From Candidatus Tectimicrobiota bacterium (GTDB lineage Bacteria; Tectomicrobia; Entotheonellia; Entotheonellales; Entotheonellaceae): 64,000 nt of DNA. Position 1 is the first letter of the stretch. Each line of letters starts with the position of its first letter. This document shows, in pieces, positions 6,768 through 43,300 of the stretch. The stretch spans positions 1-64,000 of the forward strand of contig BPKO01000009.1 of assembly GCA_026005175.1 (NCBI GenBank), in the 5' to 3' direction. Under the pieces are notes generated by a model, which did not search any database, was not told the DNA's origin, and worked only from the letters and a program-made list of their open reading frames with translations. Position numbers and translations under genes: made by a program.

Positions 6768-7592
6768 ATGGCAGAGGAAGTCTTCCCGCCACGCCTGCGC
6801 GGGCAAGTGGCGGTGATCACCGGGGCGGCGCGCGGTCTGGGCCGCGCCTACGCCTTGCGCCTGGCCCGCCTGGGCGCCGACATCGTCATCAACGACATCA
6901 ACCTCGAAGCGGCGGCCGAGGTGGGAGAGCCCCTGACGGCGCCCACGGTGGTGGAAGAGATTGAACGCCTGGGCCGCCGCGCCCTGGGCATTGCCGCCGA
7001 CGTCACCAGCGAAGCGGCGGTGCAGGCGCTTTTCGATCAGGTCCTGGCGACCTTTGGCCAAGTCGATATCCTCATCAACAACGCCGGCGGGGGGCGCGGC
7101 AGCCGCAGCGTCAGCGAATGCCCGCCGGAGACCTGGGAGGCGGTGGTGGCCAAGAACCTCCGCTCGGCCTACCTGTGCTGTCGCGCCGTGGCGCCGCACA
7201 TGCGGGCGCGGCGGCGCGGCAAAATCATCAACGTCGCTTCGGTGGCCGGCCTTACACCGCTGATGCCCACTCTGGCCCCTTATGCGGTGGCCAAAGCCGG
7301 AGTCATTCAGCTCACCCGGGCACTGGCCCTGGAGCTGGCCCCCTACGGGATCAACGTCAACGCCATTGCTCCCGGCTACGTGGCCACCGTGCACTGGCTG
7401 GGCGGGCTGGGGAAGATCAAGGAGCAGCTGCTGCCGCACATCCCCATGGGACGCCTGGCCCAGCCCGAGGACTGCGCCAAGGTGATCGAGTTTCTGGCCA
7501 CTGACCTCTCGGACTTCGTCACCGGCGAGGTGATTTGCGTCGACGGCGGCATGGCCCACCTCAACCCCTACTACCTGGGGCAGGCCTACTGA
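6768..7592 (+). CDS. Short-chain dehydrogenase/reductase
   Basis: A 274-residue classical SDR. It has the NAD(P)-binding glycine motif TGAARGLGRA (about 19-27), NNAG (104-107), a catalytic Ser158 (NVASVAG) and the Tyr172-x3-Lys176 pair in PYAVAKAG. The acidic ND at the end of beta-strand 2 (VINDIN) suggests NAD rather than NADP preference. The gene begins 14 bases after the ThDP enzyme, with GGGGTG before the ATG, and is almost surely in the same transcript. Its job is probably redox conversion of that enzyme's substrate or product. The 3' end overlaps the convergent FGE-fold gene by seven bases. Confidence 0.88.
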   Translation: MAEEVFPPRLRGQVAVITGAARGLGRAYALRLARLGADIVINDINLEAAAEVGEPLTAPTVVEEIERLGRRALGIAADVTSEAAVQALFDQVLATFGQVDILINNAGGGRGSRSVSECPPETWEAVVAKNLRSAYLCCRAVAPHMRARRRGKIINVASVAGLTPLMPTLAPYAVAKAGVIQLTRALALELAPYGINVNAIAPGYVATVHWLGGLGKIKEQLLPHIPMGRLAQPEDCAKVIEFLATDLSDFVTGEVICVDGGMAHLNPYYLGQAY

Positions 7593-8665
7593 GAAGGGAC
7601 CGGGGCGGCGCAGCGAAAGCCGATGAAGTTGGCGGTGATGCCCGGCAGCAAGACAAAGCGGGCGCCGCACCCCACTTGTGAAGAGGCGCTGGGTCCTGAG
7701 CCGCCGCGCAGCACCACCCCCAGGGTGTCCTCGCGCGTGCTCGTCCACTCGAGGACGTTGCCGGCCAGATCGTGCACGCCGTAGGGGCTCTGCGTTTGGG
7801 GAGCGCTGCCCACCGCTGCCGGTGCCGTGAAGGTGGCCTCGGCCGCTGCCGGCAGCGGCGTGTTGCCCCAGGGGAAGGCGCGGCCGTCGGTGCCGCGGCA
7901 GGCCTTTTCCCACTGCAGCTCGGTGGGAAGCTGCTTCCCTGCCCACTGGCAGTAAGCGGCGGCTTCGTACCAGGAGACGCCGACCACCGGCTGCTCGGGG
8001 GCATTGAAAGCCTCGACTTGCCAGTAGCTGGGCTGGCGGCGCTGCTGCTTTTGCACCCAAGCCCACCCCTCGTCGCTCCACCACTCCCGCGTCGTGTAGC
8101 CCCCGGCCTCGATGAACTGCCGGTACTGCTGGTTGGTCACTTCGTATACGTCGATGGCGAAGGCCTCCAGGGTCACCGTCTGCCCGCTGCCGCGCTTGAA
8201 CGGCCCGGCAGGAATGCGCACCATGGCCCCCAGGCGCACGCCTGCTCGCGTCCCGGGCGGCCAGACCAGATCGTGGTAAGCCAGCAGGGCTTGCTGCTGC
8301 TCGCGCCGCAGCCCTGTCAGGTAGGCCCGGATGTGGGCTGGGGCTTCGGGATAGGGCAGGCAGGAAGCGGTGAGGAGCTGGGGCGGCTGCGCTGCCTCGG
8401 CACGCGGCACGACCAGCAGCCCGTCGGTGCGCGCCAGGTAATAGCGCACAACGATAAACAGCTGGGCGAGCTCAGGGTCAGGCCGCGCGCCCTGAGGTTC
8501 GGCGGCAAGAATCATGGCGTCGAGCAGCGCCGGGTTGAGCACGGCGGCCGGCGCCAAGTCAGCAGCGCAGTCGGGCAGGCCAAAAGGCTGCTCGGCGCCT
8601 GCCACAGCGGCAAAGCAACTGAGGAGCACCATCGCGGTGATCAGCGCCTTGGTCCCACGCGGCAT
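7586..8665 (-). CDS. Secreted FGE-sulfatase (SUMF1) fold protein
   Basis: A 359-residue protein with a signal peptide (TKALITAMVLLSCFAAVAGA), a helical N-terminal region of about 120 residues, and a formylglycine-generating-enzyme fold from about 145 to the end. Hallmarks are GAMVRIPAGPFKRGS, FAIDVYEVTNQQYRQFI, QPVVGVSWYEAAAYCQWAG, LPTELQWEKACRG, AFPWGN, GVHDLAGNVLEWTS and NFIGFRCA. The cysteine pair used by true FGEs in the region after LRGG is not conserved (GSGPSASSQVGCGARF), so it is more likely a binding or structural member of the family than an active sulfatase-maturing oxidase. ATG 8665 has AGGAG eight bases upstream. It is divergent from the efflux pump. Confidence 0.8.
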   Translation of the reverse strand: MPRGTKALITAMVLLSCFAAVAGAEQPFGLPDCAADLAPAAVLNPALLDAMILAAEPQGARPDPELAQLFIVVRYYLARTDGLLVVPRAEAAQPPQLLTASCLPYPEAPAHIRAYLTGLRREQQQALLAYHDLVWPPGTRAGVRLGAMVRIPAGPFKRGSGQTVTLEAFAIDVYEVTNQQYRQFIEAGGYTTREWWSDEGWAWVQKQQRRQPSYWQVEAFNAPEQPVVGVSWYEAAAYCQWAGKQLPTELQWEKACRGTDGRAFPWGNTPLPAAAEATFTAPAAVGSAPQTQSPYGVHDLAGNVLEWTSTREDTLGVVLRGGSGPSASSQVGCGARFVLLPGITANFIGFRCAAPVPSQ

Positions 8666-8743
8666 AAGCGGCTTTCTCCTCTGGGCAACGGTGTAGTATA
8701 GTGCTTGGCAAGACAACACCGGCCACTGCGCGGACACCTCGTT

Positions 8744-10378
8744 ATGATTCAGGCCACTTCCCGAGTCGCGTCGCGCCCCCTGCTGCGCGTCGATCCTCAG
8801 GCTGCTTACTACAAGTGGCTGGTGGCCGGCACGGTGCTGCTGGCCGGAGCAACCCAGACGTTTGCCGGCAACAGCGTCAATCTCGCCATCCCTCGCATCA
8901 TGGCCACGTTTGGTATCGATCTGGGGACTTCCCAATGGGTGGCCACCAGTTTCCTCATCACCCGCACCTTGATGGTGCCCATCCTGGGGTGGCTCGGCGG
9001 CTTTCTGGGCAACCGAAATCTCTTTGTCTTGTCGCTGCTTGGCTTTGTCGTCTCCTCTGTGGGCTGCGGGCTGGCGGTGTCCTTCCCGCTCTTGCTGGTC
9101 TTCCGCCTCATGCAGGGCCTGGTGCTGGGGCCGATGGAAGGCCTGACGGTAGTACTGCTGGTGCACGCCTTTCCGCCGCACCGCCGCGGCCTGGCCATTG
9201 GCCTGCGTACCGTGGGCTGGTCAGCAGGGCAGATCGTGTCGTTTACCCTCGGCGGCTATTTTATCGAGCAGCTTTCGTGGCGCATGCTGTTTTTCATGGG
9301 CATCCCCAGCGGCGTGCTTGCCGCCCTGCTCGGCCTCCTGCTTCTTCCCCAAGAGCGCGAGTACCGCGGGATTCCCGTCGATTACACCGGCTTGCTGGCC
9401 CTGGGGCTGTTTTTGGTGCCGCTGTTGCTCGACATCAGCCTGGCCCGCCGTGACGAGACGACGACCGCGACACTCCTGCTGCTGGCCGGCGTGGCCTTGG
9501 TGGGCGGCACGCTGTTCGTGCTGCGCGAGCTAATGGCGCGCTACCCGGCGGTCAACTTGCGGCTCTTTCGCCTGCCGGCGTTTCGGCTCCTATGCGGTAC
9601 TGCCTTGCTCAACACCATGGGACTCTTTGGCGCCCAATTCATGATCCCCATCTTTCTCCAGCAGGTGATGGGGTACAGCCCGCTACAGGCCGGGCTCATC
9701 ATCGTCCCGGCGCTGGTCTTTTCCGCTTTTGGCGGCACGCTGGCCGGCCGCCTCAGCGACGCCTTCAGCCCCCGTCTTCTTATCCTCGTGGCGCTGGGGG
9801 CGCTGACGGTGGTGTTCCGCCTCTTTGCCTCGGTGTCGGCCCTCACCACGAGCGGCGTCCTGGTGGGGTACATCATCTTGTACCGCGTGTGCCTCTTTTC
9901 CATCAACACGCCGATCACTGCCCTCAACGTGCGCATCCTGCCGGCAGAGCAGGTGCGCATGGGCCAGGGGCTGCTGGGCACGGTGCGCAACATCGGCGCT
10001 GCTCTCGGAGTCACCATCGCCAGCGTCATCTTTGAACGACGCCGGGCCTGGCACCAGCTCATGGCCTACGCGGCCTATGACGCAGCCTCGACAGAGCACA
10101 CGGCGGCGATGGCGCGCCTCAGCGACCTCCTGTGGGCTGCCGGCGTCGAGCCGACCCAGGTTTCCGCGGTGGCCTTGCAGGCCCTGCGGCGGCAGATGGA
10201 CGTCGAGGCAGTGGCGGCCGCCTTTCGCGACACCTTCTTTGCCATCGGCTTTTGCTTCTTGCTCGCCATGCTTCCCATGCTGGCCATTTCTACCCGCGGC
10301 ACAGCCAGCGCCAAGCCCCCACGGCCAGAAACAATAGCCCGGAAAGCACGACAATCGTCGGGCCAGAAGGCCAATTGA
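8744..10378 (+). CDS. DHA2-family MFS drug efflux transporter
   Basis: A 544-residue, roughly 14-helix major facilitator of the EmrB/QacA (DHA2) type. It expels hydrophobic compounds through the inner membrane using the proton gradient. Seen are the early motif WVATSFLITRTLMVPILGWLGG, the family-typical antiporter region GLAIGLRTVGWSAGQ, and a C-terminal half with INTPITALNVRILPAEQVRMGQG. The extra helices in the middle (YTGLLALGLFLVPLLLD) fit 14 rather than 12 segments. ATG 8744 is the likely start, but its ribosome site is weak; a TTG at 8705 is the alternative. A TATAGT -10-like sequence lies at 8697-8702. The last 89 bases overlap the convergent znuB gene. Confidence 0.85.
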   Translation: MIQATSRVASRPLLRVDPQAAYYKWLVAGTVLLAGATQTFAGNSVNLAIPRIMATFGIDLGTSQWVATSFLITRTLMVPILGWLGGFLGNRNLFVLSLLGFVVSSVGCGLAVSFPLLLVFRLMQGLVLGPMEGLTVVLLVHAFPPHRRGLAIGLRTVGWSAGQIVSFTLGGYFIEQLSWRMLFFMGIPSGVLAALLGLLLLPQEREYRGIPVDYTGLLALGLFLVPLLLDISLARRDETTTATLLLLAGVALVGGTLFVLRELMARYPAVNLRLFRLPAFRLLCGTALLNTMGLFGAQFMIPIFLQQVMGYSPLQAGLIIVPALVFSAFGGTLAGRLSDAFSPRLLILVALGALTVVFRLFASVSALTTSGVLVGYIILYRVCLFSINTPITALNVRILPAEQVRMGQGLLGTVRNIGAALGVTIASVIFERRRAWHQLMAYAAYDAASTEHTAAMARLSDLLWAAGVEPTQVSAVALQALRRQMDVEAVAAAFRDTFFAIGFCFLLAMLPMLAISTRGTASAKPPRPETIARKARQSSGQKAN

Positions 10379-39722: not shown

Positions 39723-40607
39723 ATGGCAAAACCCTGGCAACGTCGCAGGGGATGTGGGCTGCTGCTTTTCCTTCTCGGGTGGGCCGTCTGGGCAGAAGCG
39801 ACCCAGACCCCCTGCCCGCCCGCCACGCCCACCCCCATGGTGACCATTCCCGCCGGCCCTTTCCTCATGGGCAGCACGCGCGAGGAGCGCGAGTATGGCT
39901 ACCGGCTCGACGAGCTGCGCGGCAGCGCTGTGGCCCGCACCTATCGCTGGTTCGAAAATGAAACGCGCCGCCAGGTGACGCTGCCCGCCTACCGCATCGA
40001 TCGCACGCCGGTAACCAACGCTGCCTATGCCTGCTTCGTGGCCCAGAGCGGCCACCCCCCGCCCTTTGTGAGCGAAGCAGAATGGCGCAGCTACCGGCTC
40101 ATCCACGACTACGCCACGGTGCGCCGCTTTCTCTGGCACGGCAAGGAGCCGCCGCCGGGGCGCGCCCGCCATCCCGTGGTGCTGGTGAGCCACGCCGACG
40201 CGGCCGCCTACTGCGCCTGGCGCGGGCAGGTGGAGGGGCGGCCGCTGCGCTTGCCCACCGAAGAAGAGTGGGAAAAGGCGGCGCGCGGCGCCGACGGCCG
40301 CTACTTCCCCTGGGGCAACACGTTTGACCCGCGCCGCCTCAACAGCGCCGATCTGGGCCCTTATGACACGGTGCCGGTGGGACAGTACCCCCAGGGGCAG
40401 AGCCCGTACGGAGTCCTCGACATGGCCGGGCAGGTGTTCGAGTGGACGCAGACCCTGCTGCGCCCCGATCCTCCAACGTACATCGTCAAAGGCGGCTCCT
40501 GGGACGACCTGCCAGGGGTGACGCGGGCGGCGGCACGCCACGGCCGCCCCGCTTGCCTCAAGCACATCCTCATCGGCTTTCGCTGCGCCGGGCCGCTGGC
40601 GCCCTGA
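39723..40607 (+). CDS. Secreted FGE-sulfatase fold protein downstream of egtD
   Basis: A 294-residue protein with a signal peptide (GCGLLLFLLGWAVWAEA) followed by a complete FGE/SUMF1 fold. It shows MVTIPAGPFLMGSTREER, AYRIDRTPVTNAAYACFV, HPVVLVSHADAAAYCAWRG, LPTEEEWEKAARGADG, YFPWGN, GVLDMAGQVFEWTQ and HILIGFRCAG. The catalytic cysteine pair of true FGE is missing in GGSWDDLPGVTRAAARHG. The ergothioneine and selenoneine sulfoxide/selenium enzymes EgtB and SenA share this fold but need an N-terminal DinB domain whose histidines bind iron; that domain is absent and a signal peptide is present, so this is neither. The 13-base gap to egtD implies co-expression. Function unknown. Confidence 0.75.
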   Translation: MAKPWQRRRGCGLLLFLLGWAVWAEATQTPCPPATPTPMVTIPAGPFLMGSTREEREYGYRLDELRGSAVARTYRWFENETRRQVTLPAYRIDRTPVTNAAYACFVAQSGHPPPFVSEAEWRSYRLIHDYATVRRFLWHGKEPPPGRARHPVVLVSHADAAAYCAWRGQVEGRPLRLPTEEEWEKAARGADGRYFPWGNTFDPRRLNSADLGPYDTVPVGQYPQGQSPYGVLDMAGQVFEWTQTLLRPDPPTYIVKGGSWDDLPGVTRAAARHGRPACLKHILIGFRCAGPLAP

Positions 40608-40635: not shown

Positions 40636-41886
40636 TTAGCGGAGCGGAAACGTTTGGTCAAAGACGACAAACGACGAGCGCTGCGTGCGGCGCAAGGCCT
40701 CTTCGAGATAAGCCCGCCCCGGCCCTTCGCTGCCGTCTTCCAGCATGGCGGTAAAGAAGCGCTCGTAGAAGTGGTCGGGATGCACCACCAGGCGCACCTG
40801 CAGGCGCGCCGCCTCAGGCGGCACCGGATGCTCGTAAGTAAAGGCGCGTGACTGCTTGGGCGGGATGCGGGTGTCGTAGAGCTCCTGCGACAAGTCAAGC
40901 GTCACCTCGCGGCCGATCACCGCCTGCTGCGTGCTGCCTTCCAGGACCTCGCCGCGGGCGTCAAGGAGCGAGGCAAAGACGAAGATCTTGGGGGTGACAT
41001 AGGTAGGCAAGAAGTGGCCGGCCCCGCTGTTGGTGACGGTGATCACCGCCTGCAGGCGGTCTCCGGGCTGATACGCCGCGGCGTTGAGGGTGACGGCCAC
41101 GGTGAGGGCTTGCTTGACCATCTGCGGATCGTGGATGCCCCGCCACAAGTGGCGGCGCTCGGGCATGTGGCAGTGCTGGCACTGCACGCCTTGGCGCGCA
41201 TAAGGGCTCTGGCGCCACTCTTCGTAAGTGTTTTCGATAAGCTTGCCGTTGAGGGCAAAGTCCCCCGGCTCGAACTGGTGGCAGCTGCGGCAAAATTCCG
41301 AGCGCTCAAACGCCACGTGCGCCACAAAGCCCCCGTGCGGCAGGGAAGCCTCGGGCGGCAGCGGCGGCAAGTCCGTCCGCCGGGGCGGGCCAAAGCGCCG
41401 GTGGCTGCGCACATGGCAGGCAGCGCAGACCAGCCCCTGCTGCTGCAGCTGGGGGTCGAAGGCGGCGTTGGGCCGGTATGTTCCGGCCTCTTCCAGGAAG
41501 GGGAGCTGCTCGCTCAGCGGCGCGTGGCACGTGCTGCACAGGGTGTAAGTGGCCGGGTCGGTCGCCTCCATGGCCAGCAGCTGGCCGTAAACGCCCGGGC
41601 TCATGCTCTGGCTGTGCAGACTGCTTTGCCAGTCCTGGTACTGCTGGGGGTGGCAGACACCGCAGTCGCGCGGTTGAAGCGAGGCTTCCAAGGGAGAAAA
41701 AGCCGCCGGCGGGGGGCCTTGCAAGGGAATCGGAACGCGCCAGTGCTGCTGCAAGAAGGCAGCCACCTCTGGTGTCGAGGTGGCCACCGACCGGGAGCTT
41801 AGCAGGAACCAGGTCAAGAGCCCGACGCCCAGGGCCAAGCCGACCAGCAGCAGTCCCCGGCGCCGGCAAGCGACGACGCGAGGCAT
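40636..41886 (-). CDS. Membrane-anchored pentahaem c-type cytochrome
   Basis: A 416-residue protein with an N-terminal membrane anchor (LLLVGLALGVGLLTWFLL, about 12-29) and five CxxCH haem sites: CGVCH 75-79, CSTCH 117-121, CAACH 154-158, CRSCH 199-203 and CQHCH 236-240. The C-terminal 160 residues lack haem sites and form a beta-rich domain (DRLQAVITVTNSGAGHFLPT) like that of cytochrome c554/multihaem oxidoreductases with an immunoglobulin-like tail. It would carry electrons in the periplasm. It lies downstream of the NPC-repeat protein gene, 75 bases away, with a strong hairpin in between. Confidence 0.88.
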   Translation of the reverse strand: MPRVVACRRRGLLLVGLALGVGLLTWFLLSSRSVATSTPEVAAFLQQHWRVPIPLQGPPPAAFSPLEASLQPRDCGVCHPQQYQDWQSSLHSQSMSPGVYGQLLAMEATDPATYTLCSTCHAPLSEQLPFLEEAGTYRPNAAFDPQLQQQGLVCAACHVRSHRRFGPPRRTDLPPLPPEASLPHGGFVAHVAFERSEFCRSCHQFEPGDFALNGKLIENTYEEWRQSPYARQGVQCQHCHMPERRHLWRGIHDPQMVKQALTVAVTLNAAAYQPGDRLQAVITVTNSGAGHFLPTYVTPKIFVFASLLDARGEVLEGSTQQAVIGREVTLDLSQELYDTRIPPKQSRAFTYEHPVPPEAARLQVRLVVHPDHFYERFFTAMLEDGSEGPGRAYLEEALRRTQRSSFVVFDQTFPLR

Positions 41887-41910
41887 GGGCTTTTCCGCTC
41901 ACCGCCACGG

Positions 41911-41939
41911 GCTTCCTGCTGCGCGAGGCAGCAGGAAGC
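41911..41939 (-). other. 12-bp hairpin between NPC-repeat and cytochrome genes
   Basis: GCTTCCTGCTGC (41911-41922) and its exact complement GCAGCAGGAAGC (41928-41939) form a perfect 12-pair stem with a five-base loop in the 75-base gap. There is no U-tract after it on the minus strand, so it is less like a Rho-independent terminator and more like an attenuator or mRNA-stabilising stem. It would raise output of the upstream NPC-repeat gene relative to the cytochrome. Confidence 0.6.
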
Positions 41940-41961
41940 GCCGGCCGCTCAGGCCGTAGGG

Positions 41962-42216
41962 TTACTTTTTGCCGCCGGTGCCGCAAGGGTTTTTGGCCGC
42001 GCAGGGGTTACAGGGGTTTTTGGCCGCACAGGGGTTCATCTTGGCGGCACAAGGGTTACAGGGGTTTTTAGCCGCGCAAGGATTGGCCTTGGCCGCACAG
42101 GGGTTCATCCCGGCGGCGCAGGGGTTGGCGTGGTGAGCAGCGTATGCCGCACTCACCGGCAACGCCACCGCCACGGCGAAAGCCACCAGGGCGACCAGGG
42201 TCATGAGACGTTTCAT
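41962..42216 (-). CDS. Secreted NPC-repeat cysteine-rich protein
   Basis: An 84-residue precursor with a clean signal peptide (LVALVAFAVAVALPVSAAYA). The mature part is nearly all Asn-Pro-Cys repeats of the forms NPCAAK, NPCAAG and NPCNPCAAK. There are nine NPC units and nine cysteines in about 54 residues, ending GTGGKK. The two leading histidines (AAHHA) add metal ligands. Repeats with regularly spaced thiols suggest binding of a soft metal, haem or metalloid, or a disulphide-linked rod. AAGGAGATC precedes the ATG, a strong site. The next gene is a pentahaem cytochrome on the same strand. Similar repeat proteins are annotated only as hypothetical in uncultured bacteria, as far as I know. 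Confidence 0.8.
   Translation of the reverse strand: MKRLMTLVALVAFAVAVALPVSAAYAAHHANPCAAGMNPCAAKANPCAAKNPCNPCAAKMNPCAAKNPCNPCAAKNPCGTGGKK
41983..42126 (-). repeat. Tandem NPC-coding repeats
   Basis: The DNA for the mature NPC protein is a set of imperfect tandem units of 9-21 bases. On the plus strand they read as repeats of AGGGGTT plus TTGGCCGC or similar. They code for NPC units in one frame and are not CRISPR-like, since no unique spacers separate them. Near-identical units suggest growth by slippage or unequal crossing-over. Confidence 0.7.
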
Positions 42217-42303
42217 GGCGGATCTCCTTCGCTAGGTGAAACACCGGTAGTACCCCTTGAAACGGCCTGGCGCCCGGCTTTATTCCGCTTGGCCGCTTCC
42301 GGC

Positions 42304-43300
42304 TCAGAGGCGAAAGAGGGCGCGCGCGTTGGCCGCTGCAATTGCCGCCTGCTCTGCTTCCGAAAAGCCGGCGCGGGCAAGGAGTTGTACAGGATCGGGC
42401 ACTGCCATGGGGAAGGGGTAGTCGCTGCCCAGCAGCAGGCGGTCGCTGCCCACCAGGGTACTCAGGAAGCGCAAGGCGGTGGGGTGGTGTACCACCGTAT
42501 CGTAGTAAAAGCGCCGCAGGTAAGCCGAGGGCGGCTGCGCCAGGTGCCGCCGCGTGGCTTCGACATTGGCGTAAGCAATGTCAAAGCGTCCCACCTGATA
42601 CGTAAAGTAGCCGCCCCCGTGAGGCAGGATGAGGCGCAAAGTGGGAAAGCGGTCCAGCACCCCGCTAAAAAGCAGCGCCCCCACCGTCACCGTGGTGTCG
42701 TAGAGGTAGCGGGCAATGGCGTTGAGGTAGTAGCGCTCGGTGCGCGGGGTCGGCGTGGGTTGCGTGGGGTGAAGAAACAGCGGCACGTCGAGTGCTACGG
42801 CAGCGCTCCAGAACTCGTCGAGGGGCCGGGTCGTCGAGGTTGCGGCCTTCAAGGTTGGTAGCAATAATGCCGCCCACCGCGCCGCACTGGCGCACGGCAT
42901 AGGCCAGCTCCTCGGCGGCGCGCGCGGGGTCCTGAAGCGGCACGGACGCCAGGGCGGCAAGGCGCGCGGGGTGGCGCTGCACCACCTCTGCCAGGGTCTC
43001 GTTGAGCAGGCGATGCCAGCGAGCGCCGCGGGCCGCATCGAGCCCGTAGCCGTGCAGGTCGGTCCACACCGAGAGAACCTGCCGGGCCACGCCCTGCTGG
43101 TCCATGGCGCGCCAGCGTTCCTCCAAGTCGAGCAGGCGCGGCAGCGGCGGCCGCGGCGTAAGGCCGTAGGCAAAGCGCAGGCAGGGGCTGTCGCCCACGC
43201 GGTGCAGGCTCACGCCGTAAGTCTCGGCATGGCCCTCAAGGGCGGCAAGGGCTCGGGGGGGCACGAAGTGGGCGTGCATGTCGATGGCGTCGGGCGGCAT
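42304..43300 (-). CDS. Amidohydrolase family 2 protein, ACMSD-like (one frame break)
   Basis: Removing one base from the G4 run at 42822-42825 gives a 331-residue TIM-barrel metal-dependent hydrolase or decarboxylase of the amidohydrolase-2 family, related to aminocarboxymuconate-semialdehyde decarboxylase. The first metal site is AIDMHAHFVPPRAL (HxH). Later ligands are in VPLFLHPTQP, LRLILPHGGGYFTYQVGR and LLLGSDYPFPM. The likely role is decarboxylation or hydrolysis of a ring-cleavage product. It lies nine bases downstream of an atypical SDR on the same strand, so the two probably serve one catabolic path. Confidence 0.8.

Follow-up and report, generated by a model that had tools for sequence, protein, structure and literature searches.

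Candidatus Tectimicrobiota bacterium (GCA_026005175.1) encodes, within the first 64,000 nucleotides of contig BPKO01000009.1 (the window, the whole stretch analysed here), a short exported peptide built from Asn-Pro-Cys (NPC) repeats and, directly downstream, a cytochrome with five haem-binding motifs. The best explanation of this pair is that it represents two parts of a three-part cytochrome system of the cell envelope that is conserved and seems not to have been described. The system would comprise a free NPC peptide (component N), a monohaem cytochrome of the SoxA/TsdA type bearing NPC arms (component A) and a pentahaem cytochrome resembling cytochrome c552 (component P), often with an exported protein resembling the formylglycine-generating enzyme (FGE). 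The parts recur with the same sequence features, are repeatedly linked in operons and occur together in genomes. It is highly probable that the NPC repeats and the SoxA-like and pentahaem cytochromes form one system. The NPC repeat has no family in Pfam or NCBIfam, and it marks this cytochrome system across several phyla, cultured genera included. Searches of the open-access literature aimed at the repeat or at a neighbouring protein known as DUF6969 turned up no description of the system, which does not prove that a description is lacking.

Components of the proposed system

The N-terminus of the peptide, MKRLMTLVALVAFAVAVALPVSAAYA, resembles a signal peptide, with AYA preceding residue 27, as the initial annotation of the window had proposed. 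The nine NPC units with nine cysteines that it described are likewise present, and every cysteine of the 84-amino acid protein lies inside such a unit. The units start at residues 31, 38, 45, 51, 54, 61, 67, 70 and 76. The mature peptide has 58 residues, with nine thiols, seven Lys or Arg residues and no Asp or Glu. Its open reading frame (ORF) is the only one of at least 30 amino acids in the window to contain two or more NPC, and shuffling the mature sequence 20,000 times yielded at most three NPC, compared with the nine observed. When the codons of the nine units are compared, positions 1 and 2 are identical in all nine and variation is confined to the third position. This indicates that constraint acts on the NPC frame at the protein level, and that the frame is no antisense artefact of an ORF on the opposite strand. 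An AAGGAG sequence sits 7 nt 5′ of the ATG. The gene precedes the cytochrome gene and shares its strand, and the 75 bp between them hold a hairpin (shuffle z −3.1), which may influence mRNA processing or stability and so permit unequal expression of the two genes. A tblastn search of plasmids with the peptide gave no matches.

The cytochrome had been annotated as a five-haem protein on the strand of the NPC gene, and its 416-amino acid frame does carry five CxxCH motifs, whose first cysteines are residues 75, 117, 154, 199 and 236. It had also been called membrane-anchored. With a predicted N-terminal helix at residues 13–29, this part of the claim is likely but less than certain, as some homologues have a lipobox, or a signal that can be cleaved, in its place. 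Five CxxCH are found in 22 of the 26 pentahaem-type rows examined (one of which, L161, repeats L099), the other four being three fragments with two to four motifs and a 1,093-amino acid frame with 11 (L170). In an alignment of fourteen homologues, two of them cut by the ends of their loci (L021 and L068), the five motifs are invariant and His91, His184, His246, His252 and His291 are conserved.

The closest match is the penta-haem cytochrome c552 of Thermochromatium tepidum (5ze8). It ranks first against the family profile (E 1.4e-16) and against the structure model of the window protein, whose mean predicted local distance difference test score (pLDDT) is only 73.5, both by Foldseek (1.6e-12; template modelling scores 0.53/0.56) and by VIA-align (Z 16.1; 302 aligned residues; root mean square deviation 4.5). 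MccSep (9wt8) is second-nearest by profile. Among NCBIfam models the best match is that of Geobacter ExtKL (NF040886, 6e-13), a selenoprotein model with a curated cut-off of 250 bits, against which the window cytochrome scores just 48.1. Unlike ExtKL, which has a selenocysteine or cysteine towards its C-terminus, the window protein has no cysteine after residue 239, that is, after haem five, and its stop codon is TAA. It is thus regarded as a distant member of the pentahaem family, since it lies under the ExtKL cut-off and lacks the C-terminal cysteine. According to the available text of a paper on cable bacteria (PMC11976967), ExtKL and Gsu2801 belong to one pentahaem family that is structurally like c552; the paper also cites a proposal that connects c552 with an archaeal cytochrome nanowire. 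The family is currently of interest because relatives of c552 and ExtKL are linked there to extracellular electron transfer and cytochrome nanowires. What sets the window cytochrome apart from c552, ExtKL and MccSep is its partner, the NPC peptide. SoxZ also appeared in the VIA list for the beta-sandwich of the cytochrome (Z 7.8), tied with many unrelated immunoglobulin-like folds, and was not used.

The third component is encoded elsewhere in the same genome (G000). On contig C2 (60685–61527), an ORF carries 24 NPC units that flank a single CNSCH domain. A search of 98 genomes with the peptide gave six matches at E 0.001, the window's own genome among them, and NPC units stand in the same way on either side of a one-haem domain in G003, G004, G035 and G052. 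The SoxA-TsdA domain PF21342 is matched by all 19 NPC-SoxA proteins (45 bits for the paralogue in G000; cut-off 27), and their alignment reveals invariant C133, C136, H137, C171 and M176 in the numbering of that paralogue. The best match in the Protein Data Bank (PDB) is the di-haem cytochrome 1h31, which we take to be SoxA, and the invariant Cys171 aligns to a cysteine of 1h31. The score against the SoxA equivalog TIGR04484 (41.2 bits) is below the cut-off of 110, so the protein is named SoxA/TsdA-like and not SoxA. It shares with SoxA and TsdA the SoxA-TsdA domain and an invariant cysteine where SoxA has one, and differs from them in having one haem and NPC arms on both sides. No Sox operon was seen around it.

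Distribution and linkage

A scan of a contig collection for the pattern NPC[A/G]AKNPC listed at least 119 stretches (loci), which makes the prevalence a lower bound. The loci span at most 8 kb and are often cut, and counts over them are lower bounds as well. In 117 of the 119, at least one ORF contains two NPC or more; L019 and L034 have no such ORF and stay in the denominator. A free NPC ORF is present at 77 loci. At 70, NPC is fused to CxxCH on one polypeptide, by local profiles of the SoxA type at 44 and of the P460 type at 25. A pentahaem-type cytochrome gene is found at 16 loci, 11 of which also have an NPC-SoxA gene, and N, A and P are found together at seven. The records are named as Alpha-, Beta- and Gammaproteobacteria, Rokubacteria, Tectomicrobia, Nitrospinota, “Deltaproteobacteria” and an Acidobacterium, and include the cultured genera Marinobacter, Thalassospira, Denitromonas and Hahella. 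One listed locus, L099 (Nitrospinota bacterium J063), is identical to a contig of G004, which belongs to the same class as the window's genome. The number of NPC per ORF varies freely from 2 to 43, while the haem domains stay conserved.

The repeat is carried by other proteins as well. Twelve of 14 NPC-P460-type proteins, mostly alphaproteobacterial, match cytochrome P460 (PF16694), which supplies the haem domain of many NPC-armed proteins; the arms are the difference. A phmmer search of the PDB with one of them returned no matches, and the profile of the group found one P460 chain (E 0.0016). In the window's genome, a membrane protein on contig C3 (L171:7727-8542) has five NPC units between hydrophobic segments. 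A DUF3179 protein of G035 (L163:6939-8216) has four N-terminally, and G089 encodes a free peptide of 86 amino acids. Genes for DUF3179 proteins neighbour NPC at 15 of the listed loci. A reading of the repeat as a haem regulatory (Cys-Pro) motif was rejected, as the window peptide contains no cysteine followed by proline and proline is outside the ten commonest post-Cys residues, which cover 1,609 of the 1,612 NPC units.

The initial annotation paired the NPC gene with the cytochrome and would have given up the pairing had NPC genes in relatives never neighboured cytochromes. This does not hold for the homologues, because in several phyla NPC repeats recur next to c-type haem domains or in fusion with them. 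In the set of 98 relatives, nine genomes besides the window's own contain a match to the cytochrome with E of 4e-59 or lower, and an NPC ORF lies within 6 kb of it in four of the nine (G004, G035, G053 and G067). None of ten weaker multihaem matches in the same set has NPC within 1.5 kb. A second set, the 369 genomes of the class of G136, contains 19 genomes besides G136 with a match at E 1e-40. In seven of these, all among the eight best matches, NPC is found no more than 6 kb from the cytochrome. On a tree of the cytochrome, an NPC ORF is within 6 kb in 25 of 42 rows, the nearest being on the same strand in 22. As many of these rows were found through NPC, only the 98-relative set and the G136-class set count as tests of linkage.

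The arrangement of the genes is also recurrent. At 19 loci, the window included, an NPC ORF immediately precedes a pentahaem gene of the same strand, with ORF gaps of −229 to +68 nt. Exceptions are L058, L169 and L208, where the cytochrome comes first, and L025, L035 and L100, where the two are on opposite strands. The most compact case is L210, an operon on one strand in the order NPC-SoxA, NPC peptide, pentahaem cytochrome, with variants of this three-part arrangement at L073, L108, L055 and L223. In G002 and G003, of the same family as the window's genome, N, A and P are all present and dispersed, and the pentahaem gene stands beside an FGE-like gene as it does in the window.

Co-occurrence was scored by calling a genome NPC-positive from the peptide search or from three or more hits of the pattern NPCNPC, both independent of the cytochrome. 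All nine positives among the 98 genomes (G000, G002, G003, G004, G020, G035, G052, G053 and G089) fall among the ten that have the cytochrome. The hypergeometric chance of this is 6e-12, uncorrected for kinship, with three genomes sharing a family. In the tenth cytochrome genome, G067, NPC genes adjoin the cytochrome. The NPCNPC pattern has one or two hits each in eight other relatives. The seven such sites read (L281-L287) hold only two NPC apiece, and a reversed control pattern matches in three genomes. Of these ten NPC/cytochrome genomes (the system genomes), eight contain an NPC-SoxA gene (not G020 or G089) and eight a free NPC peptide (not G052, nor G004, where the contig ends). In a wider sample of 49 NPC genomes (50 of the 119 listed loci were asked, one being left out), 13 have a pentahaem cytochrome somewhere at E 1e-40.

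Possible functions

The following mechanism is proposed, in order of decreasing confidence. The peptide and the armed cytochrome would meet in the envelope through their shared NPC sequence and stay together, which is the most confident step. The haem of component A would be ligated by histidine and the invariant cysteine, as in SoxA and TsdA. Component A may then oxidise a sulfur compound or a thiol, with the NPC cysteines of its arms and of the free peptide accepting or carrying the sulfur group, as the cysteine of SoxY does for SoxA. The least confident step is that the pentahaem protein would take the electrons onward. In the relevant passages of PMC9562282, the haem of SoxA and TsdA is His/Cys-ligated, and thiosulfate is joined to the SoxY cysteine by SoxA. 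The SoxA/TsdA-type domain of the armed cytochrome, together with its invariant cysteine, makes thiol or sulfur chemistry plausible for the NPC system. As a full reading, sulfur or thiol oxidation is put forward by analogy and tentatively, as a possibility somewhat short of being probable. Should the NPC cysteines carry sulfur, they would be a multivalent counterpart of SoxY. The system is not explained by the canonical Sox proteins; SoxA is found above its cut-off in only one of the ten system genomes.

Several observations weigh against sulfur oxidation by a single three-part system. Pentahaem cytochromes are absent from 36 of the 49 NPC genomes searched, and the DNA of 37 of the 119 loci contains no haem protein of the profiled kinds. 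In the class of G136, NPC is missing from the 6 kb around 12 of the 19 pentahaem genes (11 of them weaker matches), so linkage is confined to part of the pentahaem family. In the same 369 genomes, an NPC-AAK pattern occurs in five and the cytochrome in 20, with an overlap of two, namely the seed G136 and also G160, in which pattern and cytochrome fall on separate contigs; this pattern is blind to the spacers of L205-L211 and a poor proxy in that class. The window's own genome keeps the peptide and the pentahaem gene together, with the NPC-SoxA gene on another contig. The assignment of the cysteine ligand of component A comes from a 26-bit domain alignment to 1h31. As NPC arms also occur in a DUF3179 protein, in a membrane protein and on P460 domains, the arm is not tied to SoxA chemistry. 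Five of the ten system genomes, the window's included, have SoxY-domain genes, so NPC need not replace SoxY.

The window's genome also has a separate sulfur-related locus (G000:C6:41103-41865), in which a SoxY-domain gene adjoins a weak SoxA-like match.

A broader version of the sulfur reading would treat the NPC arms as a portable thiol array. Here, a row of proline-spaced cysteines, mostly in a three-residue register, would be grafted onto haem enzymes and also made as a free peptide, and would hand sulfur groups or electrons between SoxA- or P460-type haems and a nanowire-related pentahaem cytochrome. This is speculative and rather unlikely; if true, it would be a multivalent carrier system without a described counterpart. 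The register itself is seen in the spacings. Of those up to 15 residues, 79% (1,082 of 1,375) are multiples of three, in a sample whose search pattern required one spacing of six per locus. The structural idea behind such a register is general background.

The two main rivals retain the meeting of peptide and arms and replace the sulfur step. In the first, NPC would be a metal-thiolate module, binding Cu(I), Ni, Zn or similar on peptide and arms and either storing metal for the haem proteins or connecting these electrically or structurally. The cysteine rows, with many C-N-P-C, would suit such a role, as would the nine thiols of an acid-free mature peptide and the mostly three-residue spacing. 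The arms are strongly basic (1,100 basic and 14 acidic residues among 8,207, over the 1,612 units), and cupredoxin-like genes and flavin disulfide oxidoreductase genes lie at 18 and 10 of the 119 loci, respectively. However, no metal importer, metallochaperone or metal sensor is a general NPC neighbour. Bufferins and other MNIO-modified peptides form a family of exported, cysteine-rich peptides. The window peptide is like them in being short, exported and rich in Cys and Lys, and has a different motif. MNIO (PF05114) is absent from eight of the ten system genomes, the window's included, and in the other two it is on different contigs from the NPC genes read, for which reason a ribosomally synthesised and post-translationally modified peptide of the MNIO/bufferin kind was discarded. 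The metal-thiolate reading is held to be possible, with the chances against it.

The second main rival sees in NPC a cross-linking scaffold, whose disulfides, formed between the free peptide and the cytochrome arms, would tether haem proteins into an envelope mesh, rod or matrix, the repeats being non-catalytic. This would fit the sharing of one repeat by the free peptide and both sides of the haem domains, its free variation in number, and its grafting onto unrelated exported proteins. The composition is like that of Pro-Cys-rich structural proteins such as the sperm protein Mst87F, to which there is a weak match (14 bits; cut-off 27). Unlike Mst87F, the NPC protein is bacterial, exported and tied to cytochromes. 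A scaffold leaves the SoxA-type haem of the main partner, with its invariant cysteine, unexplained, and this alternative too is rather doubtful. If the cysteines carry either metal or cross-links, they would be a new way to build haem assemblies in the envelope.

The P460 arms raise a further alternative, that the system handles reactive nitrogen (NO or hydroxylamine), with thiols that scavenge NO and haem proteins that turn it over. The PF16694 matches described above speak for it, and cytochrome P460 proteins are described, in the available text of PMC11928373 and PMC12352625, as oxidising hydroxylamine or binding NO. Nevertheless, P460 arms and a pentahaem gene share none of the 119 loci, and the NPC hits in the window's genome include no NPC-P460 protein. 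Such a role is very improbable for the system.

A link of the pair to selenium or ergothioneine, through the nearby senB and egtD genes or through the selenite-linked relative ExtKL, is the least credible of the alternatives. The two gene names given by the initial annotation are sound (TIGR04348, 420 bits, cut-off 300; TIGR03438, 378 bits, cut-off 291), and ExtKL, a distant relative of the cytochrome, is treated in PMC5877670 as a selenite-reduction candidate. The suggested connection is not supported, as the adjacency is lost in G002 and G003, the closest two relatives that share the FGE-cytochrome pair, with neither gene within the 16 kb read. Over the 119 loci, SenB is found in none and EgtD in two. 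The lack of a cysteine after haem five and the TAA stop of the window cytochrome also count against selenium.

Neighbouring genes

The features of the window are collected in Table 1.

Table 1. Features at the NPC-cytochrome locus (window coordinates).
Feature	Position	Strand	Basis or remark
Protein with FGE-sulfatase domain, exported; its gene converges on that of the cytochrome	39723..40607	+	PF03781, 4e-48
Pentahaem cytochrome, 416 amino acids (component P)	40636..41886	-	N-terminal helix, five CxxCH, C-terminal beta-sandwich at about 258-416
Hairpin with 12-bp stem between NPC gene and cytochrome gene, without T run	41911..41939	-	
NPC peptide gene, 84 amino acids, exported (component N)	41962..42216	-	ORF translation; similar short NPC peptides at many loci
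Nine NPC units, residues 31-78; spacers mainly AAK, AAKM or none	41983..42126	-	
Putative signal peptide, residues 1-26	42139..42216	-	Sequence reading; cleavage set by eye after AYA
AAGGAG, ribosome-binding-site-like, for NPC gene	42224..42229	-	

The subfamily of the FGE-like protein also adjoins the cytochrome in G002, G003 and L099, and adjoins NPC-P460 genes in other Proteobacteria. FGE-like genes lie at 17 of the 119 loci, counting an EgtB (L106) and weak matches (L078 and L113), and by blastp the window protein has at least 47% identity to matches at 13. Fifteen copies were aligned. The loop after GGS reads PGVT in all five of the pentahaem/SoxA lineage (window, G002, G003, L099 and G052) and CGxC in the other ten, all proteobacterial and mostly of the P460 version. 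In true FGEs this loop holds the catalytic cysteines; the pair after GGS found in the canonical enzyme is missing from the window protein. A modification of the NPC cysteines by the FGE-like protein is possible.

The commonest neighbour of NPC is DUF6969 (PF22308), a cytoplasmic-looking protein at 53 of the 119 loci, in Proteobacteria (for example L028:6130-6960), with the conserved H-rich motif HYYHAH...EHGHFH. It was rejected as a universal NPC maturase, being absent from all ten NPC/cytochrome genomes among the 98, the window's included; its sole match is in G012. A structure model (pLDDT 90) has no PDB match at E 0.001 and no VIA match at Z of 5 or more, which does not prove a new fold.

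Two other observations concern the window. A second FGE-domain ORF (7589-9220, − strand), about 30 kb from senB-egtD, matches EgtB/SenA models at 1e-34 to 1e-29, below their cut-offs. At 42304-43300, an amidohydrolase (PF04909) is split over the overlapping frames 42665-43300 and 42304-43173, which points to a frameshift in the gene or a sequence error.

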